Assembly: GCF_000759435.1 (NCBI RefSeq)
Contig: NZ_JRJG01000008.1
Span: 1-64,000, forward strand
Length of the DNA stretch: 64,000 nucleotides
Source of the DNA: Hoeflea sp. BAL378
GTDB taxonomy: Bacteria; Pseudomonadota; Alphaproteobacteria; Rhizobiales; Rhizobiaceae
Direction: 5' to 3'
Shown: in pieces, positions 31,768-49,950 of the stretch
Numbering within the stretch: position 1 is the stretch's first letter
How the letters are laid out: each line of letters starts with the position of its first letter
Notes under the pieces: generated by a model
Database searches by the model: none
Told to the model about the DNA's origin: nothing
The model's input: only the letters and a program-made list of their open reading frames with translations
Translations under genes and position numbers: made by a program

Positions 31768-32358
31768 TCATTCACCTGCGTCCCGTCGAATGATGGCTTG
31801 GACCATCATGTACAGGGCGTCGACCGATAGGCTGTCCTCGATTTCGCTGCGCCGGAGATTCTGGCGGAGTGCGATGCCATCGAAGGCGAGCATCAGCGAA
31901 TGGGTCAGCGCCTCGCGTTCGGTCGGATCGGAACCGGGCAGGGCGGTTCCGATCATCTGGTGAATGCGCGACATCGTCCAGAGCAGCAGATCGGGACTGT
32001 ATTCGTCTCCGGCCTTTGCCGTGGCGAGAGCCTGAACCAGTGTCAGGGTCTGGCCGGAGCGGTCGGCGGCTATTCCATGGATGAGGCCGTCGATCAGCGC
32101 GCGCAGTCTTGCCTCAGGCGTGTCCTGCGCCTCCACCCGCGCTTCCAGGTCAAGCACCTTGGAGCGCAGCCATGGGTCGAAGACGGCAAAGGCGATTTCG
32201 AATTTCGACGTGAAATAGACATAGACGTTGGATTGGGAGGTGCCGGCGGCCCGGGCGATGCTGCCTATCGTCGTGGCGATGTAGCCCTTCTCCACGAAGA
32301 GCTTTTGCGCGGCTTCCAGAAGTGCCTGTCGGACCTGCTCGCTTTTCTGGCGCGCCAT
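31768..32358 (-). CDS. TetR-family transcriptional regulator
   Basis: A 196-residue regulator. The N-terminal helix-turn-helix has the TetR pattern L-L-E-A-A-Q-K-L-F-V-E-K-G-Y, then T-I-G-S-I-A-R-A-A-G-T-S-Q-S-N-V-Y-V-Y-F. The C-terminal ligand domain is unlike well-known subfamilies. ATG at 32358 with GGGAG upstream; the longer frame would cover the operator region. It is divergent from the Mo-hydroxylase operon, and two identical-type palindromes lie in the shared gap, so it is the likely repressor of that operon and of itself. The inducer is probably the substrate of the pathway. Confidence 0.88.
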   Translation of the reverse strand: MARQKSEQVRQALLEAAQKLFVEKGYIATTIGSIARAAGTSQSNVYVYFTSKFEIAFAVFDPWLRSKVLDLEARVEAQDTPEARLRALIDGLIHGIAADRSGQTLTLVQALATAKAGDEYSPDLLLWTMSRIHQMIGTALPGSDPTEREALTHSLMLAFDGIALRQNLRRSEIEDSLSVDALYMMVQAIIRRDAGE

Positions 32359-32389: not shown

Positions 32390-32448
32390 GAATGACATTC
32401 GCTATTGACAAAATCAAGGTGCGCGCCTTCTATTAAAGAATGGCATTC
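32390..32448. promoter_or_regulatory. Two perfect palindromes, probable TetR operators, around a promoter
   Basis: GAATGACATTC (32390-32400) and GAATGGCATTC (32438-32448) are perfect 11-base palindromes of the form GAATG-N-CATTC, centres 48 bases apart. TTGACA at 32405-32410 lies between them, with a 4/6 match to a -10 (TCTATT) 18 bases further on, pointing to the Mo-hydroxylase operon. Binding both sites would cover this promoter. Confidence 0.75.
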
Positions 32449-32559: not shown

Positions 32560-33012
32560 ATGAAGATCGAGGGAAACTTCGAGGTCGACCACCCCCGCGC
32601 GGAGGTCTGGGACAAGATCCGCGACCCGCAAGTGATGGGCGGCTGTATCCCGGGATGCGACTCGGTCGAACAGGTGGATGACACCTCCTACCGGGTCAAG
32701 GTCTCGGTGAAAGTCGGTCCCATCAAGGCGCATTTCAACCTGTCGGTCGAGGTGCTCGAAGAAGACCCTCCGCACACCATCGTGTCCCGGACCTCGGGCG
32801 AGGAGGGAACCCGCTCGAGCGTCGTGAACTCCGACAACGTGGTGCGTCTGGCGGAGACCGGGACGGGCGGTACGCGGGTCGACTACATCGCCGATGTCTC
32901 GGTGACCGGCCGCCTGGGCAAGTTCGGGCTCGGCATTTTCCGCAAGAAGGCCGACCAGTTGGCCGAGCAGTTCGTCGTCAATTTCCGGGACAGGCTGGGG
33001 GTGGCTCAATGA
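32560..33012 (+). CDS. CoxG-like SRPBCC protein
   Basis: A 150-residue helix-grip (SRPBCC) protein of the carbon monoxide dehydrogenase G type. It starts M-K-I-E-G-N-F-E-V, has C-I-P-G-C about 35 residues in, and ends in an amphipathic helix. CoxG-like proteins accompany molybdenum hydroxylases and are thought to help membrane association or maturation. First gene of the operon, preceded by GGAGG. It ends four bases before the end of the overlap into the FAD-subunit gene. A classical CO role is not implied, because the large subunit lacks the CO-type loop. Confidence 0.83.
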   Translation: MKIEGNFEVDHPRAEVWDKIRDPQVMGGCIPGCDSVEQVDDTSYRVKVSVKVGPIKAHFNLSVEVLEEDPPHTIVSRTSGEEGTRSSVVNSDNVVRLAETGTGGTRVDYIADVSVTGRLGKFGLGIFRKKADQLAEQFVVNFRDRLGVAQ

Positions 33013-33854
33013 GTGTTGTTCTCTCACCCGGCAGCGTCGAAGACGCCGTCGCGATGCTGGCCGAGCATGCGGAGGCGATGCCGCTGGCCGGCGGCGCGAC
33101 GCTGGTCGCCATGCGCAATGCGGGGCTGGTGGAGCCGACGCATCTGATCAACCTGGACTGCATCGCAGAACTGCGCGGCATTGAGCGCGACACGACCGGC
33201 GGCATCCGTATCGGGGCGATGACGCGCCACTGCGACACGGCCGCCTGCAATGACCTCACCGGCAGCCTGCTGGTCCTGCGGCGGGCGGCCGGCATGATCG
33301 CCAACCGCGTGGTGCGCAACATGGGCACCATGGGGGGCTCGGTCGCCAATGCCGATCCTGCCGCAGACTACCTGCCGGCGCTCGCCTGTTGCGACGCGGT
33401 CCTGGAAGTCGCCGGACCCGAAGGCAGGCGGAAGATTTCGATCCACGACTATGTGCAGGGCTGGTACGAGACGGCGCTCGAACAGGGCGAGATTATCACC
33501 GCCATCACTCTGCCCGCACCGGTCGCCGCGCCTTCGGCCTATCGCAAGATCGCGCGGGTGACGGGCGATTATGCCACCGCGTCCTGCGCCATGGCGCTCG
33601 ACCCTGACGGCAAGGGATTGCGCGCGGCGATCGGCGCCTGCGGCCCGGGCCCGCTCCGGGATCGCGATGCAGAAGCCGTGCTTCGGGGCAGGCTGGACGA
33701 CCCCGAGGCGGTCCTGGACTTTGCTGCCTGCCTGGCAGCCCTTGCCGATCCCCTCGATGACGTGCGCGGCAGCGCGGAGTACCGGCTGCGCCTGATCCCG
33801 CGGCTCATCACGTCGGTCCTTTCCGAGATCGCACTGCAGACGGAGGTGGCATGA
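33009..33854 (+). CDS. Molybdenum hydroxylase FAD-binding (medium) subunit
   Basis: A 281-residue FAD-binding subunit of the xanthine oxidase/CO dehydrogenase family (CoxM type). It carries the two FAD motifs, A-G-G-A-T (as P-L-A-G-G-A-T-L-V) near residue 28 and N-M-G-T-M-G-G-S-V-A-N-A-D-P-A-A-D near residue 107. It passes electrons from the iron-sulfur subunit to an external acceptor. Overlaps both neighbours by four bases, as expected for co-translated subunits. Confidence 0.9.
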   Translation: MSVVLSPGSVEDAVAMLAEHAEAMPLAGGATLVAMRNAGLVEPTHLINLDCIAELRGIERDTTGGIRIGAMTRHCDTAACNDLTGSLLVLRRAAGMIANRVVRNMGTMGGSVANADPAADYLPALACCDAVLEVAGPEGRRKISIHDYVQGWYETALEQGEIITAITLPAPVAAPSAYRKIARVTGDYATASCAMALDPDGKGLRAAIGACGPGPLRDRDAEAVLRGRLDDPEAVLDFAACLAALADPLDDVRGSAEYRLRLIPRLITSVLSEIALQTEVA

Positions 33855-34330
33855 TGTCGAAGAAGATCCTGCACAGCCTGAACCTGAACGGGGAAGAGGT
33901 CGAAGTGGCGACCCCGGCCGGCGCCACGCTTCTGGAGACCATGCGCGAGGACCTGCGGATCCTCAGTGCCAAGCGCGGCTGCAACCAGGGTGTGTGCGGT
34001 GCCTGCACGGTGCTGATCGACGGCAAGCCGGTTCGCGCCTGCCTGACGCTGACTGCGCGGTGCGAAGGCCACGCCGTCCAGACCATGGAGGGCATGGGCG
34101 GGGACCGGGTGATGGCCACGCTGCAACGCCACATGGTCGAGAGCGGCGGCGTGCAATGCGGCTTCTGCACCTCCGGTATCCTGATCTCCGCCCGTGAATT
34201 GCTCGAAGAGGATCCTGCTCCCAGCCGCGCGGCGGTGAAGACCGCACTGTCGGGCAACATCTGCCGCTGCACCGGCTATCGCACGATCGTCGACGCTGTC
34301 TGCAGCGCGGCCGAGGAGTTGGCCCAATGA
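33851..34330 (+). CDS. Molybdenum hydroxylase [2Fe-2S] (small) subunit
   Basis: A 159-residue iron-sulfur subunit (CoxS type). The plant-ferredoxin-like cluster uses R-G-C-N-Q-G-V-C-G-A-C and a later cysteine. The second cluster uses C-G-F-C and G-N-I-C-R-C-T-G-Y. Both sets are complete. It links the molybdenum centre to the FAD subunit. It starts ATGATG at 33851, overlapping the FAD subunit, and ends overlapping the large subunit. Confidence 0.93.
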   Translation: MMSKKILHSLNLNGEEVEVATPAGATLLETMREDLRILSAKRGCNQGVCGACTVLIDGKPVRACLTLTARCEGHAVQTMEGMGGDRVMATLQRHMVESGGVQCGFCTSGILISARELLEEDPAPSRAAVKTALSGNICRCTGYRTIVDAVCSAAEELAQ

Positions 34331-36657
34331 GCCTTGTCCAGCCTGATCCCGTCTTCGTCGGCGGCAGCGTCGGCAAGTCCATCGCCAAACCGGACAATCT
34401 CGAGAAAGTCCAGGGCCGCGCCGAATACATCGCCGATCTCTACCGCCCCGGCATGTTGCATGGAGCCATCCTCGCCAGCCCGCATGCGCACGCCCGCATC
34501 CGCGGCTACGACCTGACCGAGGCGCTCAATGCTCCAGGCGTCGTGGCGATCGTCACGGGCGATGACGTCGGCGACGGCCGCATGGGCGCCTTCATCAAGG
34601 ATGAACACGCAATTGCCCGCGGCAAGGTGCTTTATGTCGGCGAACCCGTGGCGGCGGTGGCAGCGCGAACCGAACAGGAGGCCCGCCACGCCTGTCGCCT
34701 GATCAAGGTGGACTACGAGGAACTGCCGGCCGTGCTCTCGCCCGAAGAAGGCCTGGCCGATGGCGCGCCGGTCCTGCACGAGCGTCTCGCCGACTACATC
34801 AAGGTCTTCGACGCGGGCTCGGCGGGAAATCTCTGCAGCCGCACCGAATTGAGCGAAGGCGATGTGGAGTCCGCCTGGGCAGATTGCGACGTGATCGTCG
34901 AGGGGGAATACACCACCCAGGCGCAGGCGCATGTCTCGATGGAGCCCTGCGGGGCGCTGGCGGATGTCGATGCAAATGGCCGCGTCACGCTCTGGTCGGC
35001 CAACCAGTCGGTGTTTCGTGTCCAGGCCAATGTCTGCGAGAGCCTGAGCCTGCCGATGTCGAAGCTGCGCTGCCTGACGCCCCGCGTCGGCGCGGGCTTC
35101 GGCAACAAGATGGAGGCGCATATCCAGCCGATCACCGTCGCGCTCGCCTTGAAGGCGAAGCGACCGGTGAAACTGATCATGACGCGCGAGGAAGACTTCG
35201 AGATGGTCCGCGCGCGCCACCCGTTCCGGGTGCGGATGAAGACAGGGGCGAAGGCCGACGGCACCCTGGTGGCGCGCGAATGCGAGGTCCTGGTGGATTG
35301 CGGCGCCTTCGCCGACGACAGCCCGGGGGTGATGGGATACAGCCTGCTGATGTGCGGCGGGCCGTACCGGATCCCGAACCTGAAAGCCTCGGGCAGGCTT
35401 GTCTACACCAACAAGCTGCGCTTCGGCGCGTTCCGCGGTTTCGGCAATCCGCAGGTGCTTTTCGCCGGAGAGCAGCAGATCGACGAGATCGGCGACAGGC
35501 TCGGCCTCGACCCCTTCGCGATCCGGCGCAAGAACATGCTGCGGGAGGGGGACCAGTGGTTCGTCGGGCCGCGGATCGGCTCCAACGGACTGGCGCTCTG
35601 CCTGGACGCAGTCGAAAAGGCCGCCAAGGGGCCGCGCGCCGACGGCAGCCCGCGCAATTTCGGCCTCGCCGTCACGGCCCATATTTCGGGTCTGTTGGGC
35701 ACGGGTGCGATCGTGCGCATGCTCGAGGACGGAACGATTTCGCTCAATACCGGGGCAACGGACATCGGCCAGGGCTCGGATACGGTGCTGGCGCAGATCT
35801 GCGCCGAAGAGCTCAAGATGCCCTTCGATCAGGTGGCGGTCGCAAGTCCCGACACGGACGGCTCCCCCTACAACTGGGGCACCACGGCGTCGCGTGTCAC
35901 CTATACGACGGGCCGCGCGGTGCGGGCCGCCGCCAAACAGGTGGTCGATCAGGCCATGAGCCACGCCGCCGAAATGCTGGAATGCCCGATCGACGATCTG
36001 GAACTGCGCGAGGGCGGACGGATCGGCCGACGCGGCGCCAACACGGATGTGACCTTCGCCCAGATTTCCGGACGCGCCCACTGGGCCGTCGGTGGACCGC
36101 TGGTGGGTAGCCAGACGCTGGTCTACGATGAACCGACCCATGACCCCAAGCGCGCCATTGCGCTGGGCCTGCCTTTCCCCCGCATCGGTGTGTTCAGCTT
36201 CGCGGCCCTTGGCGTCGACGTCGATGTGGACGACACCAGCGGGCAGGTGACCGTGCAGGAAGTATGGTCGGCCGCCGACGTCGGGCGTGCCATCAATCCG
36301 CGGCTGGTCGAGGTGCAGTTGCACGGCGGCTTTGTGCAGGGGCTCGGCTATGCGCTTTACGAGGAAATGGTCTGGGATGGGGCGCGGCTCGCGAACCCGT
36401 CGCTGATGGACTACAAGGTGCCGACCTCGCGCGATGTGCCCGACGCGATCCACACCTTCATCATCGAGGATCCCGATCCGAGCGGTCCATTCGGCGCGAA
36501 GGGTGCCGGCGAGATCGGCCTCAACGCCGCGGCCGGTGCAATCGCCAATGCCGTCGCCAAAGCCACCGGTGCGCGCCATTCGCATCTGCCGCTCACCGGT
36601 GAGCGCGTGCTCGCGGGCATGCTCGACTCCGGCACGTCGTCGGAGCGGTCTGCATAA
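34327..36657 (+). CDS. Molybdenum hydroxylase large (molybdopterin) subunit
   Basis: A 776-residue catalytic subunit of the xanthine oxidase family. Molybdopterin contacts include G-A-G-F-G-N-K and the C-terminal G-A-K-G-A-G-E, whose Glu (residue 729) is the conserved base. The active-site loop reads A-F-R-G-F-G-N-P-Q, not the A-Y-R-C-S-F-R of form I CO dehydrogenase, so a CO role is unlikely. Related enzymes hydroxylate aldehydes, purines, nicotinate, quinoline-type heterocycles or aromatic acyl-CoA. The substrate here is unknown. An importer, a cupin and an FAD monooxygenase downstream suggest the first oxidation step of a catabolic route. Confidence 0.9.
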   Translation: MSLVQPDPVFVGGSVGKSIAKPDNLEKVQGRAEYIADLYRPGMLHGAILASPHAHARIRGYDLTEALNAPGVVAIVTGDDVGDGRMGAFIKDEHAIARGKVLYVGEPVAAVAARTEQEARHACRLIKVDYEELPAVLSPEEGLADGAPVLHERLADYIKVFDAGSAGNLCSRTELSEGDVESAWADCDVIVEGEYTTQAQAHVSMEPCGALADVDANGRVTLWSANQSVFRVQANVCESLSLPMSKLRCLTPRVGAGFGNKMEAHIQPITVALALKAKRPVKLIMTREEDFEMVRARHPFRVRMKTGAKADGTLVARECEVLVDCGAFADDSPGVMGYSLLMCGGPYRIPNLKASGRLVYTNKLRFGAFRGFGNPQVLFAGEQQIDEIGDRLGLDPFAIRRKNMLREGDQWFVGPRIGSNGLALCLDAVEKAAKGPRADGSPRNFGLAVTAHISGLLGTGAIVRMLEDGTISLNTGATDIGQGSDTVLAQICAEELKMPFDQVAVASPDTDGSPYNWGTTASRVTYTTGRAVRAAAKQVVDQAMSHAAEMLECPIDDLELREGGRIGRRGANTDVTFAQISGRAHWAVGGPLVGSQTLVYDEPTHDPKRAIALGLPFPRIGVFSFAALGVDVDVDDTSGQVTVQEVWSAADVGRAINPRLVEVQLHGGFVQGLGYALYEEMVWDGARLANPSLMDYKVPTSRDVPDAIHTFIIEDPDPSGPFGAKGAGEIGLNAAAGAIANAVAKATGARHSHLPLTGERVLAGMLDSGTSSERSA

Positions 36658-36715
36658 CCAACAATAAAAAGATCAACACGGCCTACGGAACAGGGCCAAA
36701 AGAGGAGAGAAGAGC

Positions 36716-37900
36716 ATGAAAGGACCAACAAGGCTGGCTTTTGCTGCGCTCGGCGCGGTCATGGGCCTGATGGCGGGGGCTGCGGTCGCGCAGGACCCGG
36801 TGACCATCGGCTATTCGATTGCGCGCACCGGCATCTATGCCGCCGCCGCGCCTTCGCAAGAGAACTCCTACAAGCTGTGGCAGACACAAGTGAACGCCGA
36901 GGGCGGCCTGCTGCTGCCCGGCGGCGAACGGCGCCCCGTCGAATTCGTGAGCTACGACGACCAGTCCAACCCCGCCAATACCGTGCGCATCTATGAAAAG
37001 CTGATCACCCAGGACAAGGTCGATCTGCTCGCCGCCCCATGGGGAACGCCGATGCATCTGGCGCTTGCGCCGGTGCTGCAGCGGTTCAAGATGCCGATGG
37101 TGGGCAATACCGCCGCCTCCGTGCAGTTGCGCACCGTGGCGCCCGGTTACATCTGGTTTCCCACCTCGGCGATTCCCGATGCCATGGGCGCGGAACTCGC
37201 CAAGATGATGAAGGCCAACGGCGTCACGAGCGCGGCGCTTCTTGCCAATGAGCTGCCCTATTCCCAGGAGTTCCGCAGCTTCCTGATCCCGGCGCTTGAA
37301 GAAGCCGGGATCGAGGTGAAGGTCGACGAGAGCTATCCGCCGGACATCAAGGACATGACCTCGATGCTCGTCCAGGTTCGCGATGCCGCTCCGGACGCGG
37401 TCGTGGCGATGACCTACCCCGCCGATGCCTTCCTGTTCGCAGGGCAGGCCAAGGAACTCGGACTCAAAGCGCCTTTCGTCCTGTCGCTGATCGGTCCGAC
37501 CATCGATGCCTATCGCAAGGCCAACGGGACGGCGGTCAACGGCATCGTTTCCTCCGCGCACTGGTCGGCCCAGGCCGACAAATGGCCCAAGGGGCGGCCG
37601 TTCTTCGACGCCTATGTCAGCGCGTTCGGCGAAGAACCCGACGCGCTCGATTCCGCCCTCTCCTACATGTCCATGGAGATCCTGCAGCAGGCCGTGGCCA
37701 AGGCAGGGCTCGATCCCGAGGCGCTGCGCGAGGCGATCGCGACCGGCAGTTTCGACACGATCAACGGCGAGGTCCGTTTCGAAGGCGTGCAGAACGTGGT
37801 GACGCCCACGGGCTTCGTCCAGATCCAGGACGGCAAGATCGAACTTGTCTGGCCCGAGTCCGTCAAGACCGCTGACTACGCCCCCAAGCAGGGCTGGTAA
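36716..37900 (+). CDS. ABC transporter substrate-binding protein, branched-chain amino acid (LivK-like) type
   Basis: A 394-residue type I periplasmic binding protein. The signal peptide runs from M-K-G-P-T-R through a hydrophobic core to A-V-A-Q at about residue 24. The mature start V-T-I-G-Y-S-I-A-R-T-G and the hinge L-I-T-Q-D-K-V-D-L-L are family features. Preceded by a GAGGAGAGAAGAG box. This family binds branched-chain amino acids but also aromatic acids, amides and urea. Placement behind a molybdenum hydroxylase suggests it binds that pathway's substrate. Confidence 0.87.
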   Translation: MKGPTRLAFAALGAVMGLMAGAAVAQDPVTIGYSIARTGIYAAAAPSQENSYKLWQTQVNAEGGLLLPGGERRPVEFVSYDDQSNPANTVRIYEKLITQDKVDLLAAPWGTPMHLALAPVLQRFKMPMVGNTAASVQLRTVAPGYIWFPTSAIPDAMGAELAKMMKANGVTSAALLANELPYSQEFRSFLIPALEEAGIEVKVDESYPPDIKDMTSMLVQVRDAAPDAVVAMTYPADAFLFAGQAKELGLKAPFVLSLIGPTIDAYRKANGTAVNGIVSSAHWSAQADKWPKGRPFFDAYVSAFGEEPDALDSALSYMSMEILQQAVAKAGLDPEALREAIATGSFDTINGEVRFEGVQNVVTPTGFVQIQDGKIELVWPESVKTADYAPKQGW

Positions 37901-37906
37901 TCAGAA

Positions 37907-37932
37907 GGCCCCGTCCGCCTGCGGGCGGGGCC
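37907..37932 (+). other. Long GC hairpin after the LivK-like gene
   Basis: The arms 37907-37918 and 37921-37932 can form 11 stem pairs, including one T-G, around a four-base loop. No T-run follows. It resembles the hairpins after nrtA and potD in this window. Confidence 0.6.
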
Positions 37933-38010
37933 GCCTCTCGTTCCAATCCGACCCGTGCCGGGCGTTGCCCCGTGCCTTGCCCCCGTCTGAGCTACGGATA
38001 AAGGATCGTC

Positions 38011-38898
38011 GTGGATACGTTACTGTCAGGACAACTGCTGTTCGCTGCGCTCGTTTCGGGATCGCTCTACGCACTTGTCGCGCTCGGGCTGAACCTGGTC
38101 TACGGCACGCTGCGGCTGCTCAACATCGCCCACGGCGATCTGGTCATGATCGGCGCCTACACGGCCTTCTGGATGTTCTCTCTCTTCGCCGTCCCGCCCC
38201 TGGTCTCGCTTGTCCTCGCCGCCGCACTCTGCGCGCTTCTGGGCTGGGCCGTGTATGCGGGCCTCTTCCGCCGGATGCTGGCCAAGCCCGACCTCGCAAA
38301 GCGGGTCGAGGCCAATTCGCTGATCCTGTTCTACGGCATCTCGGTGATCCTGCAGAACCTGACGGCACTTGCCTTTTCCTCGACCTCGCGCGGCTATCAG
38401 TACCTTGACACCGTCATCACCTGGCAGGGCATCAGCATGACCGGCAACCGGCTCCTGTCGCTCGGCGTGGCCGCCACCATTTGTTTCGGCACGCTGCTGT
38501 TCCTTCGCTTTCACCTCTTCGGCTGGGGGCTCAGGGCCGTGATCGAGCGGCGCGAGGCGGCGCAGGTCGTTGGCGTCAACCTGAACCGCGTCCAGCTTCT
38601 GACCATCTGCGGCGGCTTTGCCGTGGCGGGGATGGCGGGCGTGCTGGTGAGCATGACCGAACAGATCACGCCGTTCATGGGCTTCCCTTTCACCATCGTG
38701 GCGTTCGTGGTGATCATCATCGGCGGCCTCGGCAATATCGGGGCGGGGATTCTCGCCGGCTTCTGCCTGGGTCTGGTGGAGACCTTCGGCATCGCGCTGA
38801 CCTCGCCGGGCTACCGCTCGATCCTGATCTACGGGTTGTTTGTTGGCGTGCTGATGGTCCGGCCCGAGGGCATCTTCACCAAGGCGGTGCGGTCGTGA
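38011..38898 (+). CDS. ABC transporter permease, LivH type
   Basis: A 295-residue inner-membrane permease with about eight helices and the LivH start L-V-A-L-G-L-N-L-V-Y-G-T-L-R-L-L-N-I-A-H-G-D. It also has the conserved G-L-G-N-I-G-A-G-I-L-A-G near the C-terminus. The start is GTG at 38011 after AAAGGA. The stop overlaps the LivM-type ATG by one base. It pairs with the next gene to form the membrane channel for the LivK-like protein. Confidence 0.9.
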   Translation: MDTLLSGQLLFAALVSGSLYALVALGLNLVYGTLRLLNIAHGDLVMIGAYTAFWMFSLFAVPPLVSLVLAAALCALLGWAVYAGLFRRMLAKPDLAKRVEANSLILFYGISVILQNLTALAFSSTSRGYQYLDTVITWQGISMTGNRLLSLGVAATICFGTLLFLRFHLFGWGLRAVIERREAAQVVGVNLNRVQLLTICGGFAVAGMAGVLVSMTEQITPFMGFPFTIVAFVVIIIGGLGNIGAGILAGFCLGLVETFGIALTSPGYRSILIYGLFVGVLMVRPEGIFTKAVRS

Positions 38899-39797
38899 TG
38901 CGGCTCGGCTCAGCCCTCTGGATCGCCCTTGCCGGCTTCGGTGCAGCGGTTCCCTTTTTCGGCAGCACCTACCTGATGGGCGTCGTCTTCCAGGTCGCAA
39001 TGTGGATTGCCCTTGCCCAGAGCTGGTCGATGCTCTCTGCAACGACAGGCTATCTCTCGCTTGGCCATGCGGTGTTTTACGGGGTCGGGGCGTATGTCTG
39101 TGTGCTGCTCACGGGCATTATTCCGTTCGAATTTGCCATTCTTGCCGCCGCCGGATCCGCGGCGCTGTTTGCAGCCCTGATCGGCCTCCCGGTGCTGCGG
39201 GTTCGCGGGCCGTATTTCGTGATCCTGACCTACGGCCTGTCGGAACTGGTGCGCCACGTTGTCATGCGGATTGAGTCCGCGCTCGGCAGCTTCGGACGGA
39301 TGATCTTCGACGTGCCGGCACAGGAGGTGCTGCTTTGGTGGATGGTCGGCCTTGCCGTGCTGGCGACGCTTGGCGCCTACGCCATCCGCCACTCGCGCTT
39401 TGGAGCGGGCCTGGCAGCCATACGGGAAGACGAGGTGGCAGCCCAGACGATCGGCGTTCCGGTGACGCGGCTCAAGCTTCTGGCCTTCATCGCCTCTGCC
39501 GCCATTCCCGGCGCGGTGGGCGGTCTTGCCCTGCTGCGCACCAGCTATTTCGAGCCGGCGCAGGCCTTCGATCCGGTGATTTCCTTCACCATCGTCACCA
39601 TGGCACTCGTCGGCGGCACCGACAGCGTTCGCGGCCCGATCCTCGGCGCGATGGGCTTTGCGCTTCTTTCCGAGCTTCTGTGGTCGACCCTGCCGCAACT
39701 TTACATGATCGTTCTCGGCCTGACCCTGATCGTCTTCGTTCTCTTCGTCCCGCGCGGCCTTTCGGGGCTCGTCGGGCGCATCGGGGGGGCACGGTGA
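38898..39797 (+). CDS. ABC transporter permease, LivM type
   Basis: A 299-residue permease, the LivM partner. It has L-S-L-G-H-A-V-F-Y-G-V-G-A-Y near residue 50, the R-G-P-Y-F-V-I-L-T loop and A-I-R-E-D-E-V-A-A characteristic of this subunit. The ATG at 38898 was chosen because it directly follows the LivH stop; the longer open frame reads through LivH. It overlaps the next ATPase gene by one base. Confidence 0.9.
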   Translation: MRLGSALWIALAGFGAAVPFFGSTYLMGVVFQVAMWIALAQSWSMLSATTGYLSLGHAVFYGVGAYVCVLLTGIIPFEFAILAAAGSAALFAALIGLPVLRVRGPYFVILTYGLSELVRHVVMRIESALGSFGRMIFDVPAQEVLLWWMVGLAVLATLGAYAIRHSRFGAGLAAIREDEVAAQTIGVPVTRLKLLAFIASAAIPGAVGGLALLRTSYFEPAQAFDPVISFTIVTMALVGGTDSVRGPILGAMGFALLSELLWSTLPQLYMIVLGLTLIVFVLFVPRGLSGLVGRIGGAR

Positions 39798-40516
39798 TGA
39801 CGCTTCTCGATATCAAGGGGGTGAGCAAGCGCTTTGGCGGCCTGATGGCGCTCAGCGACGTCAGCCTGCAGGTGAACAAGGGTGAAATCTTCGGCCTCAT
39901 GGGCGCAAACGGCGCCGGCAAGACCACGCTGTTCAGCGTCATCGCCGGGCATATCCCGCCCACGACCGGGGAGGTTGTCTTCGATGGCAAGCGCCTGGCC
40001 GGTCTGTCGCCCGACCGCATCTGCCGCCTCGGCCTGTGCCGAACCTTCCAGATCGTGCGCCCCTTCGCAGGCCTCTCCGTGGCCGAAAACCTGCGTGTCG
40101 CCGCCCTATATGGCCGCGCGCGAAAGCTCTCGGCCACAGAAGCCGCGCAGATCGTGGACGACGCGCTGGACGCCGTGGGCCTTGCGGACCGGCGTCATCT
40201 CGATGCGGGACGGCTTACATTGTCCGGGCAGAAGCGGTTGGAAATCGCCCGTGCGCTGGCGACGGGCGCGCAACTGGTGATGCTCGACGAGGTGATGGCG
40301 GGACTCAATCCCACGGAGGTTGGCACCATGCTCGACACCCTGCGCCGTCTGCGGACCGAGCGGGATCTTACCTTCGTCATCGTCGAGCACGTGATCGGAG
40401 CGCTGATGACGCTCTCGGACCGTATCCTGGTGCTCGATCACGGCGAGTGCATTGCCTTCAGCACTCCCGAGGAAATCGGCCGGAACGAGCGCGTCGCGGA
40501 GGTGTATTTCGGATGA
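39797..40516 (+). CDS. ABC transporter ATP-binding protein, LivG type
   Basis: A 239-residue ATPase with Walker A G-A-N-G-A-G-K-T-T near residue 36, the LivG-type Q-loop region F-Q-I-V-R-P-F, signature L-S-G-Q-K and Walker B V-M-L-D-E-V-M-A-G-L-N-P-T-E, which is the hallmark of LivG. Start ATG at 39797 (GTG at 39794 is also possible). Overlaps the LivF-type gene by four bases. Confidence 0.9.
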   Translation: MTLLDIKGVSKRFGGLMALSDVSLQVNKGEIFGLMGANGAGKTTLFSVIAGHIPPTTGEVVFDGKRLAGLSPDRICRLGLCRTFQIVRPFAGLSVAENLRVAALYGRARKLSATEAAQIVDDALDAVGLADRRHLDAGRLTLSGQKRLEIARALATGAQLVMLDEVMAGLNPTEVGTMLDTLRRLRTERDLTFVIVEHVIGALMTLSDRILVLDHGECIAFSTPEEIGRNERVAEVYFG

Positions 40517-41229
40517 TCGCCCCCATGCTCTCGGTTCGTAATCTGCGCGCGGCCTACGGGCCGGTGCAGGTGCTGTTCGACGTCGATTTCGACGTCGCCC
40601 CAGGCAGCGTCACAACCCTGATCGGCGCCAATGGTGCAGGGAAGACGACGATCATGAAATCGGTCGCCGGGCTGATGATGCCCATCGGTGGCGCGATCCT
40701 GTTCGAAGGGCGCGACATCACGCGGGCGCCCAGCCACGACCGGGTCAATTCCGGCCTGTCGCTGATCCCCGAAGGGCGGCTGGTCTTTCCCGGCATGACC
40801 GTGGAGCAGAACCTGCGCCTCGGAGCCATCGCGCCCGCGGCGCGTTCAGGCCACTCGGAGATGCTGGCCGACGTCTTCCGCCGCTTCCCGCGGCTCGAGG
40901 AGAGACGCAGCCAGCATGCCGGACTCATGTCGGGCGGAGAACAGCAGATGCTTGCGCTCGGACGGGGGTTGATGGCCCGGCCGCGCCTGATCCTGATGGA
41001 TGAACCCACGCTCGGATTGGCGCCGGTGATGGTGAAGCAGGTCTTCGAGACCATCAGGGAACTGCGCGCATCCGGCTTCACCATCCTGCTCGCCGAGCAG
41101 AACGCCAGGGTCGCTCTGGAACTCGCCGACCAGGCCTATCTCCTGGAAAACGGCCGCGTTGCGCTGTCGGGACCGGGCGCAGAACTGCTCGATTCGCACG
41201 ATGTGCGGCGCGCCTATCTGGGGATGTGA
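40513..41229 (+). CDS. ABC transporter ATP-binding protein, LivF type
   Basis: A 238-residue ATPase. Walker A G-A-N-G-A-G-K-T-T is near residue 37, the L-I-P-E-G-R motif typical of LivF near 85, signature M-S-G-G-E-Q-Q-M-L-A-L-G-R, and Walker B L-I-L-M-D-E-P. ATG at 40513 overlaps the LivG stop (ATGA). It completes a five-gene LivKHMGF-type importer sitting within the Mo-hydroxylase unit. Confidence 0.9.
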   Translation: MIAPMLSVRNLRAAYGPVQVLFDVDFDVAPGSVTTLIGANGAGKTTIMKSVAGLMMPIGGAILFEGRDITRAPSHDRVNSGLSLIPEGRLVFPGMTVEQNLRLGAIAPAARSGHSEMLADVFRRFPRLEERRSQHAGLMSGGEQQMLALGRGLMARPRLILMDEPTLGLAPVMVKQVFETIRELRASGFTILLAEQNARVALELADQAYLLENGRVALSGPGAELLDSHDVRRAYLGM

Positions 41230-41272
41230 GGGAAATGGACACCGACACCGATCATCATCGAAAGGATCCCGG

Positions 41273-41581
41273 ATGCGCTTCGTAGCCATCTTCTTCGACG
41301 ACGTGCAACCGGCGCAGATCGATCCCGGCCTGACCCGGGACCACTTCGACTATCTCGCCGGTTGCAGCGACCGCATCACCGACGCGGGCGGACTGCGCGA
41401 AGGCGCCGATCTGCCCTTCTGCGGCTCGCTTTGGGTGATCGAGGCGGAAAGCCTCGCCGAAGCACAGGCGCTCGCCGACGGCGACCCCTATTGCAAGGCC
41501 GGGCTGAGGCCCGACTACCGCGTGCTGCAGTGGAACCGGGCACCCCTGCCCAAAAGACCGACTGATACAGGAAAGGAATGA
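41273..41581 (+). CDS. YCII-family protein
   Basis: A 102-residue ferredoxin-like-fold protein of the YCII type: M-R-F-V-A-I-F-F-D-D start, a conserved His in R-D-H-F-D-Y-L, an Asp-Ala-Gly-Gly turn, and the Y-C-K-A-G-L motif. Family members include small dehalogenase- or lactonase-like enzymes and many of unknown role. ATG at 41273 after AAAGGATCC. It lies three bases before the cupin gene, so it probably acts in the same pathway, perhaps on a reactive intermediate. Confidence 0.8.
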   Translation: MRFVAIFFDDVQPAQIDPGLTRDHFDYLAGCSDRITDAGGLREGADLPFCGSLWVIEAESLAEAQALADGDPYCKAGLRPDYRVLQWNRAPLPKRPTDTGKE

Positions 41582-41584
41582 GCC

Positions 41585-42031
41585 ATGAGTAGCCCAGACG
41601 GTACAGAAGTGATGGTATTCACCCCTAAGAACAAGACCGAGGCCAAGCAGGGCATGCCGCAGTTCTTCGGTGTCTCCGAGAACTCCACCGGCGCCAAGCA
41701 CCTGTCCCTGAATGTCACCGCCTTTGGTCCCGGCGGACGGGCCAAGTCGCATCGCCACAAGGACTACGAGACCGCGATCTACACGATGTCCGGCAAGATC
41801 GTGCTGCTGCACGGGCCCAATCTCGAAAACGAAAGCCTGATGGAGCCGGGAAGCTTCTGCTTTATCCCCGCCGAGGTGCCGCACATGGCGTTCAATCTGT
41901 CCGAGAGCGAGCCTGCCACCGCGCTCACCGCGCGGAACGATCCACGCGAGCAGGAAAATGTCGTCCTGATGCCCGAGCTCGACACCGAAGAGCTCGACGC
42001 GCGTGTCGCCAGGCGCCGGGCGGAGGGCTGA
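41585..42031 (+). CDS. Cupin-domain protein
   Basis: A 148-residue single cupin barrel. Motif 1 appears as S-H-R-H-K-D-Y-E-T, giving the usual His, His, Glu metal ligands. Motif 2 is P-G-S-F-C-F-I-P-A-E-V-P-H, giving the third His. A metal centre is therefore likely. It could be a dioxygenase, isomerase or sensor. Its position between the YCII protein and an FAD monooxygenase makes ring opening or isomerisation plausible but unproven. Confidence 0.82.
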   Translation: MSSPDGTEVMVFTPKNKTEAKQGMPQFFGVSENSTGAKHLSLNVTAFGPGGRAKSHRHKDYETAIYTMSGKIVLLHGPNLENESLMEPGSFCFIPAEVPHMAFNLSESEPATALTARNDPREQENVVLMPELDTEELDARVARRRAEG

Positions 42032-42034
42032 ACC

Positions 42035-43279
42035 ATGAAGGTCATCATTGTCGGCGGCGGCATCGGCGGTCTCACCGCCGCGCTCTATCTGCACAAGCAC
42101 GGTGTGCCCTGTCAGGTTTTCGAGAAGGCGCCCGAGATCCTGCAACTGGGCGTCGGCATCACCATGCTTCCCCACGCCATCAGCGCGATGAACGAACTGG
42201 GGCTGATGGAGCGGCTCGATGCGCTGGGCGTGCGGACCGACCGGATGATCTTCCGAACCCGCGGCGGCCAGGAAGTCTGGAACGCGCCACGCGGCCTGGC
42301 CGCGGGCTATGACGTTCCGCAGATCACCGCGCACCGCGCCGACATCCATCGGGTTCTGCTCGACGCCGTGGCCGAGCGGTTGCCCGAAGGGACGCTGGCC
42401 CTCGATGCGGCCTTCGATGGCGTGGAAGACAGGGGCGATGGCGTCTCGGTCACCTTGCGCCGAAGCGACGGCAGCACCTTCACGGCCGAGGGCGACGTGC
42501 TGATCGGCGCCGACGGCATCCATTCCGCCGTTCGCCGCCACCTGAAGCCGGACGAGGGTGCCCCGCGCTGGTCGGGGCTGATGCTCTGGCGCGGGTCGGT
42601 GGACTGGCCGAAGGTGCTGGACGGGCACACGATCATCAACAGCGGCGGCACCAGCCGGAAATTCATCTTCTATCCGATCGGTCCCGGCAAGACGCCGGAG
42701 ACCCAGTTGATGAACTGGGCCTGCGTGGTCCGGCAGGCAGATCCCGGCGCGCCCGCGCCCGGACGCGAGGACTGGAACCGCGAGGCGCAGGCAGAGGTTC
42801 TGCATCCGATCCTTGAGGACTTCACCGTGCCGGAGACGGACATCCGCGCGATGGTCGATGCCACGCCGGTGTTCTGGGACTTCCCGATGTGCGACCGCGA
42901 TCCGCTTGAGACGTGGACACGCGGCCGCGTCACGCTTCTGGGCGATGCGGCCCACCCGATGTATCCGTTTGGCGCCAACGGTTCCGCACAGGCCATTCTC
43001 GATGCGCGGGCGCTGGGGCGGCTGTGTGGCGCTGGCGGCGATCCGGCGGCGATCCTGCTGGCCTACGAAGCCGAACGGCTTTCCTCCGTCAACGAGGTTG
43101 TGGCCGGCAACCGGACCGGCGGCCCGGAGCGCGTGATTGACGAGGTTGAAGCCCGCATCGCTGACCTGCCCGGGCAGAAGTTCGAGGATATAGAGGCGAT
43201 CCTGCCGTTCAAGGAACGGGATGCGATCGTCAACGGCTACTCAAGGCTTGCAGGCTTTGCCACCGAACAGATGCGGTGA
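42035..43279 (+). CDS. FAD-dependent aromatic monooxygenase (PHBH fold)
   Basis: A 414-residue flavoprotein. The N-terminal G-G-G-I-G-G-L-T-A-A-L dinucleotide motif, a central D-G motif (I-G-A-D-G-I-H-S-A-V-R) and the late L-G-D-A-A-H-P-M-Y-P-F-G-A-N-G motif define the class A flavin monooxygenases. The G-A-N-G-S-A-Q-A-I-L-D stretch is close to the phenazine hydroxylase PhzS group. It hydroxylates an aromatic or N-heteroaromatic ring using NAD(P)H and O2. Last gene of the unit, three bases after the cupin. The substrate is presumably made by the Mo-hydroxylase. Confidence 0.88.
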   Translation: MKVIIVGGGIGGLTAALYLHKHGVPCQVFEKAPEILQLGVGITMLPHAISAMNELGLMERLDALGVRTDRMIFRTRGGQEVWNAPRGLAAGYDVPQITAHRADIHRVLLDAVAERLPEGTLALDAAFDGVEDRGDGVSVTLRRSDGSTFTAEGDVLIGADGIHSAVRRHLKPDEGAPRWSGLMLWRGSVDWPKVLDGHTIINSGGTSRKFIFYPIGPGKTPETQLMNWACVVRQADPGAPAPGREDWNREAQAEVLHPILEDFTVPETDIRAMVDATPVFWDFPMCDRDPLETWTRGRVTLLGDAAHPMYPFGANGSAQAILDARALGRLCGAGGDPAAILLAYEAERLSSVNEVVAGNRTGGPERVIDEVEARIADLPGQKFEDIEAILPFKERDAIVNGYSRLAGFATEQMR

Positions 43280-43709: not shown

Positions 43710-44564
43710 GTGGCTGGAGACATGCACAATCGTAAGCCATTTTTTGGGAATGCGGGATTGAGCAGCACACAGCGAGGGAATGAAAATTTCCTCCATGAGA
43801 CGGCGACAGACTTGCCTCGCGCGATAGCCGCGATCAACACGGCTGACTTTTTTCCGGCAATTCTTGATTACATGCGAAAGATCGTGCCGTTCAGCGGCGC
43901 CTTCATCACGCGACTGCACAGGAACCGGCCGCCGGACCATATCTATGACAATGTCAGGGTCGAGCGGCACCGCGATGTCGTCGACCAGTACCTGGACAGT
44001 GCCTATCTTCTCGATCCCGTGTACGACGTCTTCCTCTCCGGCCGGACCCATGGCGCGATGCGGTTGCGCGACATCGCACCGGACCAGTTCATGCGGTCGA
44101 CCTATTACCGCCGCTACTACCGGAACATCGCGCTCAGGGACGAAATGGCCATCCTGGTTCCGCAAGGCGAGGGTGCGGTCTTCTTCTCGCTCGGCCGGCT
44201 CGGGGATGAGCCGCGCTTCAGCGCCCGGTCCGTGCGGGCGTTTGAGGCCAGGATCGATGTCATAGCCGCTCTCACCGGCAAGCATTTCGAGCGCGGCCAC
44301 ACCACACCGGTCCATGCAGGGACCGCACCGGCCGATCGGACGCTGACTGCGGCGCTCGATGCCTTCGGCGAAGGAATCCTGACTGCCCGCGAACGCGAGG
44401 TGGCAACGCTCATTCTCAAGGGCCACTCGTCGGCGTCGGTTTCGGCGATGGCCGGCATCACGGTCGGCACCGTCAAGATCCACCGGAAGAACATCTACCG
44501 GAAGCTTTCGATTTCCTCGCAATCCGAACTCCTGTCGAACTTCCTGCGCTCGGTCCTGAGCTGA
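43710..44564 (+). CDS. LuxR-family transcriptional regulator
   Basis: A 284-residue regulator. The C-terminal helix-turn-helix (about 225-280) has L-T-A-R-E-R-E-V-A-T-L-I-L-K-G, then T-V-G-T-V-K-I-H-R-K-N-I-Y-R-K-L. The N-terminal 200 residues are an uncharacterised sensor-like domain with many aromatic and Arg residues. It lacks an obvious autoinducer-binding domain, and there is no luxI. GTG at 43710 or ATG at 43722 may be the start. It lies just upstream of the polyamine-type importer and hydrolase genes and is their probable activator. Confidence 0.85.
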   Translation: MAGDMHNRKPFFGNAGLSSTQRGNENFLHETATDLPRAIAAINTADFFPAILDYMRKIVPFSGAFITRLHRNRPPDHIYDNVRVERHRDVVDQYLDSAYLLDPVYDVFLSGRTHGAMRLRDIAPDQFMRSTYYRRYYRNIALRDEMAILVPQGEGAVFFSLGRLGDEPRFSARSVRAFEARIDVIAALTGKHFERGHTTPVHAGTAPADRTLTAALDAFGEGILTAREREVATLILKGHSSASVSAMAGITVGTVKIHRKNIYRKLSISSQSELLSNFLRSVLS

Positions 44565-44660
44565 ACGGCCTATCCCCTTCGGGGTATTTACCCGCGCGCA
44601 CCCGGCTCCTAGCCTTCTTGCATGGATGGTGAGCCAGATCGGCGGGGGCGGATTTTACGG

Positions 44661-45767
44661 ATGACCGGAACAGAAATCGCCAGAGACCGGAAGGCCGCGG
44701 TGTCGGCAAGGGCCCTGTCAAAGACCTTCGGACAGGGAGAGTTCGCGGTCACCGCGCTCGACAGCGTCGAACTCGACATTTTCGAGAACGAGTTCTTCAC
44801 GCTGCTCGGTCCGTCCGGCTGCGGGAAGACAACCCTGCTGCGGCTGATCGCGGGCTTCGAACTGCCGACACACGGGTCGATCGCGCTGCAGGGGCAGGAT
44901 ATCACGGACAAGCCGCCGCACCGGCGTCCGATCAACACGGTTTTCCAGAACTACGCGCTGTTTCCGCACATGACGGTGGCCGAGAACATCGGTTTCGGGC
45001 TCAGGATGCTCGGCAAGCCGGCGGCGGAGATCAGACAAACGACCGAGCGGATGCTGGCGCTGGTTCAGCTTGAGGCCATGGCCGGACGCCGGATGGACCA
45101 GCTTTCGGGCGGCCAGCAGCAGCGCGTGGCGCTGGCCCGGGCGCTGGCGCCGGCGCCCAAGGTGCTGCTGCTCGACGAGCCGCTGGCGGCACTCGATCTC
45201 AAGCTGCGCAAGAACATGCAGCTCGAGCTGAAGAGCCTGCAGGCAGAGACCGGCATCACCTTCGTGTTCGTGACCCACGACCAGGAAGAGGCGCTCACCA
45301 TGTCGGACCGGATCGCGGTGATGAAATCCGGCAAGATCCTGCAGACCGGCACGCCGCGCGACATCTATGACCGTCCGACGCACCGGTTCGTGGCCGATTT
45401 CATCGGCGACATCAACATTCTCGAAGGAACGCTCGAACACACGGACGGCGATCTGGCGAGGGTGCGGCTGAAAGACGGGACCAGGGTTTCCGCGCATCTC
45501 GGAACGGCATCGGCACGGTCGGGCGAGGTCAGCGTGGCGATCAGGCCCGAGAATGTCCGGCTGGCGGGCGCGGCCGAGGCACCGACGCTCACCGGCGTTC
45601 TCGAGACCATCGTCTATTTCGGCGCGGCGACAAATCTCCACCTTCGGCTCGGAACCGGCGAGGAAATCGTGGTCCGCAATCCGGGCGCGGTCGACGAAGG
45701 CCGGTACCAGCCCGGCGCCACCATCGGCGCCGTCCTGCAGCCCGAGCTGATACGGGTGCTGGAATGA
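44661..45767 (+). CDS. Polyamine-type ABC transporter ATP-binding protein (PotA-like)
   Basis: A 368-residue ATPase. Walker [11 protein letters not shown]-loop [11 protein letters not shown], signature [15 protein letters not shown] and Walker [12 protein letters not shown] are all present. A C-terminal TOBE/OB domain starts near residue 250, as in PotA. The start at 44661 gives the family N-terminus; ATG at 44622 would add 13 polar residues. Overlaps the permease gene (ATGA). The substrate may be a polyamine, an opine or an amide-like cation, judged by the hydrolases downstream. Confidence 0.9.
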
Positions 45768-46702
45768 GCGACCGGGAGGCCCAGACGGCGCTTGCGGCGG
45801 CGATCGCCCAGAACCGGCGCAACGAGCGCCTCACCCGGGCCTGGCTGCTTGCCCCGGCGCTGACACTCATCCTCGCCATCAGCATCCTGCCGCTCGCAAT
45901 CACCGTCGTCTATTCGTTCCTGACGCCGGGCACCTATGGCGGTGTGACCTGGGAATTCAGCACCGACAGCTACGTGCAGTTCCTGTTCCAGCGCGACATC
46001 TTCGATGATTCGCTGGTCTTCAACTCCGCCTATGTGTCGATCTTCCTCAGGTCGATCGGGCTCGCACTGGGCGCCACGCTGGGCGCGCTCATCCTTGGCT
46101 TTCCGACCGCCTATTTCATTGCGACGAAGCCGCGCGAGCAGCGCAACATCTGGCTGTTCCTGATCACGCTGCCGTTCTGGACCAACCTGCTGATCCGCAC
46201 CTACGCCATGCTGCTGATCATCCGCGACGAAGGCCTCATCAACATCATGCTGATGAAGGCCGGGATCATCTCGTCGCCGCTGACCATCCTTTACACCGAC
46301 ACCGCGGTGTTCATCGGCCTGATCTACTCGTTTCTGCCGTTCATGGTGCTGCCGATCTACGCGAGCCTCGAGAAGCTGGACTTCAGCCTGGTCGAGGCCG
46401 GCTACGATCTCTATGCAAACCGGCTGAAAGTGCTGTTTCATGTCATCGTTCCGCTGGCCAAGCCCGGAATTGTCGCCGGCTGCATCCTGGTCTTCATCCC
46501 CGGTCTCGGCGCCTACATCACGCCCGAACTGCTGGGCGGCGGCAAGAAGCTGATGATCGGCAACATGATCGCCATGCAGTTCGGCGCCTCGCGCAACTGG
46601 CCTTTCGGCTCGGCAGCCGCGCTGATCCTGATGGCGCTGGTCATCCTGGTGCTGCTGGCCAATGCCCTCGCCGCGAGAAAGGGAGCCTCGAGGAATGGCT
46701 GA
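45764..46702 (+). CDS. Polyamine-type ABC permease (PotB-like)
   Basis: A 312-residue inner-membrane permease with six predicted helices. The EAA loop is near residue 205-230 ([15 protein letters not shown]), and [11 protein letters not shown], typical of PotB-type subunits, also appears. It overlaps the ATPase gene by four bases and the second permease by eight bases. Confidence 0.9.
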
Positions 46703-47549
46703 CCCGACCACGGCAATGCCGGCATCACCAGAACCGCGCCGCCGCCGGAGGCCGGCCCGGGATCTCAAGGCGATGCCCGGGTTCACAGCAACCGCCTGGC
46801 TGTGCATCGTTGCGCTCTACCTGCCGATCCTGGTGCTGATCGTTTTTTCCTTCAACGAGAACCGGTCGGTGGTGCTGTGGACGGGATTTTCGCTCGACTG
46901 GTACGCCAAGGCGCTGGAGAATGACGGGATCCGCCATGCGGCCTGGGTGTCGGTCAAGATCGCGCTGTTTGCCACGGTCATTTCGACGATCGCCGCCACC
47001 ATGGCGGCGCTGGCGACGACCCGGACAAAGAAGTTCGCCGGCCAGGGGCTGGTCTACGGGATCATCAACCAGCCGCTGATGATCCCCGAGATCGTCACGG
47101 CCATCGCAACGCTGTCGCTGTTCGCGCTGGTCAAGAAGATCACCGGGCTTACCGGCATCGGCTACCTGATGCTGGCGCATGCGGCCTTCTGCATTCCGTT
47201 TGCCTACATGCCGATCCGCGCCCGGCTCGAGACCATGACGCTGACGCTGGAACAGGCCGCGGCGGATCTCTACGCGCCGCCGCTGAAGGTCTTCACCCTT
47301 GTGACGCTGCCGCTGCTCGGTCCCGGCATCGTTGCCGGCGCGATGCTCGCCTTCGTCGTTTCGCTCGATGACGTGATCATCACCCTGATGATTGCCGGAC
47401 CGGGGGAGACCACGCTTCCCATCTACATTCTCGGCGCCATCCGGCGCGGGGTCACGCCCGAGATCAATGCCGTCTCGACCATCCTGGTCGCGGTCTCGGT
47501 TCTGCTGGTCATGCTGCTGTTTGTCGTGCAGCGGCGCATGCAGCGATAG
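46695..47549 (+). CDS. Polyamine-type ABC permease (PotC-like)
   Basis: A 284-residue permease, the PotC-type partner. It has a basic N-terminal stretch, then helices starting with L-C-I-V-A-L-Y-L-P-I-L-V-L-I-V-F-S-F-N. The EAA loop reads L-E-Q-A-A-A-D-L-Y-A-P-P, and S-L-D-D-V-I-I-T is typical. ATG at 46695 follows GAGG; an upstream in-frame ATG lies inside the previous gene. Confidence 0.9.
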   Translation: MADPTTAMPASPEPRRRRRPARDLKAMPGFTATAWLCIVALYLPILVLIVFSFNENRSVVLWTGFSLDWYAKALENDGIRHAAWVSVKIALFATVISTIAATMAALATTRTKKFAGQGLVYGIINQPLMIPEIVTAIATLSLFALVKKITGLTGIGYLMLAHAAFCIPFAYMPIRARLETMTLTLEQAAADLYAPPLKVFTLVTLPLLGPGIVAGAMLAFVVSLDDVIITLMIAGPGETTLPIYILGAIRRGVTPEINAVSTILVAVSVLLVMLLFVVQRRMQR

Positions 47550-47578
47550 GACGGAAAAAAGGAAAGAGAGGAACAAGG

Positions 47579-48610: not shown

Positions 48611-48619
48611 GCCCGAACC

Positions 48620-48644
48620 CGGCGCGCGGGCCGCCCGCGCGCCG
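48620..48644 (+). other. Perfect 11-pair hairpin after the PotD-like gene
   Basis: Arms 48620-48630 (CGGCGCGCGGG) and 48634-48644 (CCCGCGCGCCG) enclose a three-base loop, followed by TCCCCC and no T-run. A partial block or 3'-end protector for the importer mRNA is likely. Confidence 0.65.
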
Positions 48645-48662
48645 TCCCCCACCAGAGAAAGT

Positions 48663-49901: not shown

Positions 49902-49950
49902 ACCTGCGGGATCTTGAGGTGAGAACGACAACAGGCAAGGGAATTGAGCC

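Follow-up and report, generated by a model that had tools for sequence, protein, structure and literature searches.

We analyzed a putative catabolic gene cluster in a window of 64,000 nucleotides from Hoeflea sp. BAL378 (contig NZ_JRJG01000008.1, positions 1 to 64,000; all coordinates refer to this window). Twelve genes lie on the plus strand between positions 32560 and 43279, from the ATG of a coxG-like gene (32560) to the stop codon of a flavin monooxygenase gene (43279), and a divergent gene for a TetR-family regulator precedes them (31768–32358, minus strand). An earlier reading of the letters alone (hereafter, the sequence-only reading) had described twelve tightly packed genes in one direction and had named them; we confirmed the open reading frame coordinates, strands and spacing, and Pfam, NCBIfam and PDB matches agreed with the names. 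The intergenic distances along the twelve genes were –4, –4, –4, 58, 110, –4, –1 (or –4), 8 (or –4), 43, 3 and 3 bases, where the alternative values reflect start-codon choices. We extended the unit beyond these genes: the TetR gene and a pair of palindromes beside it are part of the cluster, whereas a LuxR gene and a pot-type transporter to the right are not.

The first gene encodes a CoxG-like protein (32560–33012; COXG, E 8e-24) and is followed by genes for the three subunits of a molybdenum (Mo) hydroxylase: a CoxM-like medium subunit carrying FAD (33009–33854; FAD_binding_5, E 3e-46, and CO_deh_flav_C), a CoxS-like small subunit with two [2Fe-2S] centres (33851–34330; Fer2_2, E 1e-26, and Fer2) and a CoxL-like large Mo-pterin subunit (34327–36657; Ald_Xan_dh_C and MoCoBD_1/2; motif AFRGFGNPQ). 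Next comes a complete Liv/HAAT importer set, which according to Pfam comprises a periplasmic binding protein of the LivK/HAAT type (36716–37900; Peripla_BP_6, E 4e-57), two permeases of the LivH (38011–38898, GTG start) and LivM types (38895–39797; BPD_transp_2 in both) and two ATPases of the LivG (39797–40516) and LivF types (40513–41229, start at 40513 or 40525; ABC_tran in both, the latter read from 40525). The last three genes encode a YCII protein (41273–41581; YCII, E 8e-12), a monocupin (41585–42031; Cupin_2, E 4e-9) and a PhzS-like group A flavin monooxygenase (42035–43279; FAD_binding_3). An Rfam search of 31–45 kb gave no match.

By comparison with relatives, we placed the start of the TetR gene (TetR_N, E 6e-13) at 32358 (likely start MARQKSE), leaving about 200 bases between it and coxG. 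This junction contains two perfect palindromes, GAATGACATTC (32390–32400) and GAATGGCATTC (32438–32448), which flank a TTGACA box (32405–32410, plus strand) that is probably the –35 box of the operon promoter; a scan for consensus promoters did not turn up a complete sigma-70 site. The pattern GAATGNCATTC matched twice in the window against 0.12 matches expected, and none of 100 shuffled sequences contained two. In the whole genome, exact GAATGNCATTCGCT sites were confined to the two junction palindromes, and one-mismatch copies were found at three other places.

Conservation of the cluster and its NicX-carrying sister form

With nine aligned CoxL proteins as the query, a scan of 84,980 species genomes gave 67 loci, which is a lower bound because the scan relied on two short peptide patterns. 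The sequence-only reading had proposed looking for the same gene order in other genomes; the full 13-gene order (tetR, coxG, coxM, coxS, coxL, livK, livH, livM, livG, livF, ycii, cupin and the flavin monooxygenase gene) was present in 8 of the 67 loci, with per-gene identities to the window of 61–95% and a TetR orthologue in each of the eight, a recurrence beyond what chance would give. The hosts were Tropicimonas, Roseivivax, Pseudooceanicola, Chachezhania, Albibacillus, two Gemmobacter and an uncultured Rhodobacteraceae, all Rhodobacterales-type records. We refer to the window and these eight loci together as window-type (nine clusters, or nine rows in alignments). Intergenic spacing was similarly tight in the other eight; an odd value of –166 between coxM and coxS in L077 is probably due to start-codon choice. 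We also compared the flanks, which covered up to about 7.5 kb on the left and 3.4 kb on the right (much less for L069). Genes outside the cluster were common to at most two of the eight loci, with several in the Gemmobacter pair and a weak pair (34%) in L070 and L106, and the fetched flanks had no gene in common with those of the window. Because flank genes were not shared more widely, the limits of the unit are those of the thirteen genes, which form one conserved, self-contained unit.

The junction is conserved as well. The palindrome GAATGACATTC was found there in all nine window-type clusters, and a strict motif, GAAYGNYATTCGNTATTGAMA, matched 20 of 68 sequences (1.28 Mb in total) once each, always at the TetR/operon junction, with the TTGACA box located 3΄ of the first palindrome in these 20 sequences. 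The results point to a palindromic, conserved, operator-like element at the divergent TetR promoter.

Of the 67 loci, 43 combine these regulator and Mo-hydroxylase families with a homologue of NicX (2,5-dihydroxypyridine 5,6-dioxygenase), and we call these loci NicX-type. The two downstream modules were mutually exclusive at the identity limits set for the count (40% for YCII, cupin and monooxygenase): the latter three genes were present in 8/8 window-type and 0/43 NicX-type loci, as compared with 0/8 and 43/43, respectively, for the NicX-type gene. An alpha/beta-hydrolase was detected in 39 of the 43 NicX-type loci versus none of the eight. The sequence reached at least 3.5 kb upstream and 6 kb downstream of coxL in 31 NicX-type loci; among these, the hydrolase lay at most about 100 bases from the end of coxL in 30, livK was found in 30 and tetR in 29, and YCII, cupin and monooxygenase were found in none at 40% identity. 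In genome searches, the NicX type was present in 6/6 NicX-type genomes and 0/8 window-type genomes (of nine; the L069 genome was left out); the window's own genome had no match to the sister's NicX-type query, and the two window-type Gemmobacter genomes had only a NicX homologue of 35–37% identity. The strict junction motif was present in seven of the nine window-type and 13 of the 43 NicX-type loci, and L074 of the sister form carries the motif with one deviation. The junction motif thus connects some members of the two forms but not every one.

The NicX-type protein matched NicX (PDB 7cn3) at E 2e-67; one such protein (L130:7103–8182) matched no Pfam or NCBIfam model at E 0.01. An excerpt of PubMed Central (PMC) article PMC7910607 gives His265, Ser302, His318 and Asp320 as the Fe ligands of NicX, and all four were kept in 39/39 full-length NicX-type rows (39 of the 43 loci; three partial rows were left out, as was a fourth that probably has a stop in its reading frame). 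On its sequence, the sister dioxygenase is called here a NicX-type subfamily, separate from NicX; its distant homologues in genomes of Variovorax and Gemmobacter are 33–37% identical to it. A second NicX homologue (36–37%) occurs elsewhere in three of the six NicX-type genomes searched. The distant relative in Gemmobacter genomes (L181 and L182; 33–37%) lacks Glu177 and the DEPGR stretch and keeps the Fe ligands, and it perhaps belongs to another subfamily.

The remaining 16 loci, three of which are contigs shorter than 6 kb, contained neither module. At 60% identity, HyuA was found in five of them, HyuB in six and a CoA-ligase-type gene in five; the hydantoinase-type HyuA/HyuB genes of L085, L094, L103, L104, L118 and L119, often accompanied by the CoA-ligase-type gene, possibly represent a third downstream module. 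Three further records (L087, L090 and L099) bear labels (Verrucomicrobiales, Mesoflavibacter) that clash with their alphaproteobacterial-type clusters. The CoxL proteins of L087 and L090 are near-identical, and these records are probably mislabelled or mixed metagenome-assembled genomes.

Predicted enzymes of the two forms

The domains of CoxMSL fit a Mo-containing alpha-hydroxylase, as in the NicX pyridine pathway, and we predict this activity. Mo-hydroxylases add water-derived oxygen to the ring, and from family knowledge we take Glu729 of the CoxL-like subunit, in the motif AFRGFGNPQ, to be the probable catalytic residue. The best PDB match of this subunit was the alpha subunit of 4-hydroxybenzoyl-CoA reductase (1rm6, E 1e-114), but its score with the model for that enzyme was far below the cut-off (546.6 versus 994.55 bits). 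The models for the large subunit of carbon monoxide dehydrogenase (CODH) were also far from their cut-offs (TIGR02416, 315.7 versus 991 bits; NF040766, 333 versus 950), and the loop AFRGFGNPQ aligned to a different loop in CODH 8uem. The xanthine dehydrogenase (XDH) equivalog models (XdhA/PucD) gave 498 versus 780 and 462.5 versus 783.65 bits. On these cut-offs, CO, xanthine or 4-hydroxybenzoyl-CoA chemistry by name was ruled out. According to an excerpt of PMC6525221, alpha-hydroxylation of pyridines is usually carried out by Mo-hydroxylases.

We compared the CoxL proteins of the nine window-type rows with 39 of the 43 NicX-type rows (two truncated rows and two others were left out). Only positions 633 and 737 were invariant in the window type while 85% or more of the NicX-type rows had another residue there; at the other motif positions compared, which were chosen from family knowledge, the residue was the same in both forms, barring 374, 726 and a few single departures. 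Because only two positions differ consistently, the product of the Mo enzyme is probably alike in both forms, namely a dihydroxypyridine-like N-heterocycle. Because no other oxygenase is found among the shared genes of the NicX form, its starting compound would already bear a hydroxyl group, by analogy with the 3-hydroxypyridine route in the same excerpt of PMC6525221.

Among the products of the downstream trio, the YCII protein has H24 and D71 among its residues invariant in 9/9 orthologues. The top Foldseek match of its structural model (predicted local distance difference test score [pLDDT] 77) was TftG, 5-chloro-2-hydroxyhydroquinone dehydrochlorinase (4lbp; E 1e-7, TM 0.72). TftG shares the YCII fold and acts on a polyhydroxylated ring, and the likeness of the model suits a step on such a ring; with 26% identity between the two proteins, no chlorinated substrate is implied. 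In the cupin, the 3-His/1-Glu metal site (H56, H58, E62 and H100) was invariant in all nine orthologues, which bears out the full ligand set ascribed to it earlier; cupins that are not dioxygenases have such sites too. A cupin match at E 1e-20 was found in only 5 of 385 genomes of the class, own genome included, and eight annotated plasmid neighbourhoods (8 of 66 matching plasmid records) had no common neighbours.

The best PDB matches of the monooxygenase, 2rgj and 3c96 (‘flavin-containing monooxygenase’; E 6e-77 and 7e-77), are entries that we take to be PhzS, and the match is at family level only; PhzS acts in phenazine biosynthesis. The protein also passed NF005720 of the PRK07538/PhzS-like family, a model named ‘hypothetical protein’, with 485.6 bits against a cut-off of 400. 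Relatives at 1e-80 were found in 96 of 397 genomes of the order, the best outside the window being about 53% identical, and 29 loci with such relatives (L019–L047, flanks of at most 1.5 kb) had no adjoining cupin or YCII gene. The window's own genome contains two further relatives, C38:124703-125908 (49%) and C144:2588-3808 (41%).

Ancestry and genomic setting

In a CoxL tree of 68 rows (quick method, supported by the Shimodaira–Hasegawa-like approximate likelihood ratio test only), the nine window-type rows formed one clade (100) inside the NicX-type rows, and its sister was L073/L074, two NicX-type clusters (97). In the TetR tree, L074 was the sister of the window type (100/96). At E 1e-180, CoxL was found in only three of 397 sampled genomes of the window's order, namely the own genome, G115 (a NicX-type cluster, 72%) and one at 47%, and the window's CoxL row fell inside Rhodobacterales-type rows. 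This rarity and placement suggest that the host likely acquired the cassette through transfer. The cluster was not set apart by G+C content or by G+C content at third codon positions.

To the right of the cluster, positions 43710–51618 hold genes for LuxR, the pot-type ABC transporter, a beta-lactamase-family protein and an Amidohydro_3 protein, which are not in the unit. The LuxR and pot block is common within the genus, and it occurred without the cluster in all six relatives fetched (out of eight same-genus genomes with LuxR at 79% identity or more). The window's left neighbours (MerR and a metal ATPase) were not beside LuxR in those six, and no clean empty site was found among them. Further to the left, positions 14863–27629 resemble a nitrate-assimilation region, with two NMT1-like proteins, an ABC permease and ATPase, a nitrite/sulphite reductase and a sirohaem synthase-type gene.

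A proposed pathway and its alternatives

We lean, by a small degree, toward the interpretation that the locus is a transferable cassette for the breakdown of a small N-heterocycle, probably of the hydroxypyridine type, and that its ring-opening module was exchanged in the window's lineage. TetR, acting at the two palindromes flanking the –35 box, would keep the operon off until an inducer appears, the Liv-type importer would take the compound in, and CoxGMSL would hydroxylate a carbon beside the ring nitrogen with water, as the enzyme class and the sister clusters suggest. In the sister clusters, the product of the Mo enzyme would pass to the NicX-type dioxygenase and the alpha/beta-hydrolase, a module that would have been replaced in the window's lineage by YCII, cupin and monooxygenase. 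There, the PhzS-like monooxygenase may hydroxylate the ring once more with O2, YCII may handle a polyhydroxylated or quinoid intermediate, and the metal cupin may open the ring.

The sequence-only reading had already proposed a single uptake-and-oxidation pathway for an aromatic or N-heterocyclic compound, and a co-regulated pathway of this kind for an N-heterocycle is well supported by the conserved unit, the operator-like motif and the NicX-carrying sister clusters. Its order of events (Mo hydroxylation with water, hydroxylation with O2 and ring opening by the cupin) is plausible; we infer both this order and the cupin's role. Of the substrate classes that it named, pyridine-type compounds are favored, and purine-type compounds are less likely because the sister module is NicX-like and no XDH model reaches its cut-off. 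We suggest tentatively, as a possibility somewhat short of probable, that YCII, cupin and PhzS-like monooxygenase constitute an undescribed module that opens the ring of dihydroxylated N-heterocycles independently of NicX, that the small cupin in it is a ring-cleaving oxygenase of a new kind, and that bacteria exchange whole modules (NicX and hydrolase; YCII, cupin and monooxygenase; perhaps HyuAB and CoA ligase) behind one conserved regulator/Mo-hydroxylase front end.

Several observations weigh against the favored interpretation of a cassette with an exchanged ring-opening module. The structural model of the cupin was poor (pLDDT 62), a fold search with it returned no significant match, and nothing in the cupin's sequence marked it as a dioxygenase. 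The twelve genes include no member of the maleamate amidase or maleate isomerase families; PF17645 matched at E 1e-3 in 11 of 12 genomes, 10 of them above cut-off, and its matches in the own genome (96 and 64 bits) lie elsewhere and are uninformative. In the sister form, Glu177 of NicX, a substrate contact, is replaced by Gln in 39/39 rows and His189 is kept in 37/39; even the sister clusters may therefore use something other than plain 2,5-dihydroxypyridine. Near the motif, the CoxL rows of the NicX type are not uniform (N/V at position 374 and G/S at 726), so that the substrate of this form may differ from locus to locus. The strict junction motif is missing from 30 of the 43 NicX-type loci, some of which (L092, L100, L113 and L133) have a clearly different palindrome. 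With regard to ancestry, the TetR of L073 was placed elsewhere in the TetR tree, and coxG, coxM and coxS together supported the grouping of the window type with L073/L074 only at 89/90. On chosen subsets of rows, approximately unbiased tests rejected this grouping for LivK (P = 0.002, 27 rows) and for the concatenated LivHMGF genes (P = 2e-5, 28 rows). The history of the importer is therefore a different one, and it could bind a different ligand.

By the LivK and LivHMGF tests, the view that the entire cassette descended from the NicX form is rejected for the importer. Taken together, the tree results indicate that the cassette is a mosaic, in which the regulator and oxidase apparently come from one line and the importer from another, within the same importer family, while the downstream trio is new.

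The enzymes might act in another order, with the Mo enzyme hydroxylating an unhydroxylated pyridine or pyridine carboxylate, the monooxygenase forming 2,5-dihydroxypyridine as NicC does and the cupin serving as a non-homologous replacement of NicX. NicC (8uiq and 5eow, E about 1e-37) indeed comes next after 2rgj/3c96 among the PDB matches of the monooxygenase, and an excerpt of PMC6525221 states that beta-hydroxylases need an alpha-hydroxyl group para to their site, which the Mo enzyme would supply. However, we consider this order unlikely: the Mo subunit differs little between the two forms, yet a relative of the monooxygenase (at least 40% identity) was found in none of the 43 NicX-type loci, so that those hosts would need a beta-hydroxylase encoded elsewhere. 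We also regard it as improbable that the window type takes an unrelated substrate, either another N-heterocycle or a carbocyclic aromatic, such that only the regulator and oxidase were re-used and the importer and downstream genes were recruited. The separate history of the importer, the wholly different downstream enzymes and the restriction of the strict junction motif to 13 of the 43 NicX-type loci fit this explanation, whereas two points argue against it: the motif is closely similar in those 13 loci and also, apart from one deviation, in L074, and the Mo subunits of the two forms show few consistent differences. Finally, the Cox-type families and the coxG gene would be compatible with a CODH- or XDH-like enzyme that oxidizes CO or a generic aldehyde or purine and whose neighbours have no part in this. 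This is highly improbable, given that the CODH and XDH model matches fall far below their cut-offs, that AFRGFGNPQ aligns to a different CODH loop and that the importer and oxygenases stay with the Mo enzyme in 8/8 loci.

The pyridine clusters known as nic, pic and the nicotine variant of the pyridine and pyrrolidine pathways (VPP) run through 2,5-dihydroxypyridine by the NicX route. The cluster described here resembles them in its Mo-hydroxylase for alpha-hydroxylation, and the sister form has the NicX Fe ligands; in contrast to them, the window form lacks a NicX type and a dedicated hydrolase, and it encodes YCII, cupin and PhzS-like monooxygenase together with a Liv importer. The fungal hxn nicotinate pathway of Aspergillus offers a precedent for an additional hydroxylation, in that HxnV is proposed in an excerpt of PMC9304392 to convert 2,5-dihydroxypyridine, in place of ring cleavage, into 2,3,6-trihydroxypyridine, although the product was not detected. 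However, HxnV belongs to the phenol 2-monooxygenase type, its step is followed by reduction and hydrolysis of the ring, and the excerpt contains neither ‘cupin’ nor ‘YCII’. The kpi pathway of Arthrobacter IN13 for 4-hydroxypyridine likewise combines a FAD_binding_3 monooxygenase, KpiA, with a ring opener from outside the NicX family; there, according to an excerpt of PMC7356986 that does not contain the word ‘cupin’, the monooxygenase is the first enzyme and the ring opener, KpiC, is of the amidohydrolase family. The sequence-only reading had not recognized the gene set as a described pathway, and searches of the openly licensed PMC literature are compatible with this, given that no paper about the set was found by title and start of abstract, which is weak negative evidence. 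Homarine was considered in view of the Rhodobacterales-type hosts, and no paper describing homarine genes was found by title and start of abstract. The cluster belongs, as a variant, with the known catabolic clusters for N-heterocycles and does not make a category of its own.

The two forms of one cassette provide a testable comparison, in which the regulators are related, the junction motifs similar and the Mo enzymes closely similar but the ring-opening enzymes different, and the junction motif is a handle for finding further members of the cluster. If the proposed pathway is correct, one first product would serve both forms, and these bacteria would have an aerobic route for a dihydroxypyridine-like compound besides the NicX type. 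In addition, functions could then be assigned to a small cupin and a YCII protein.

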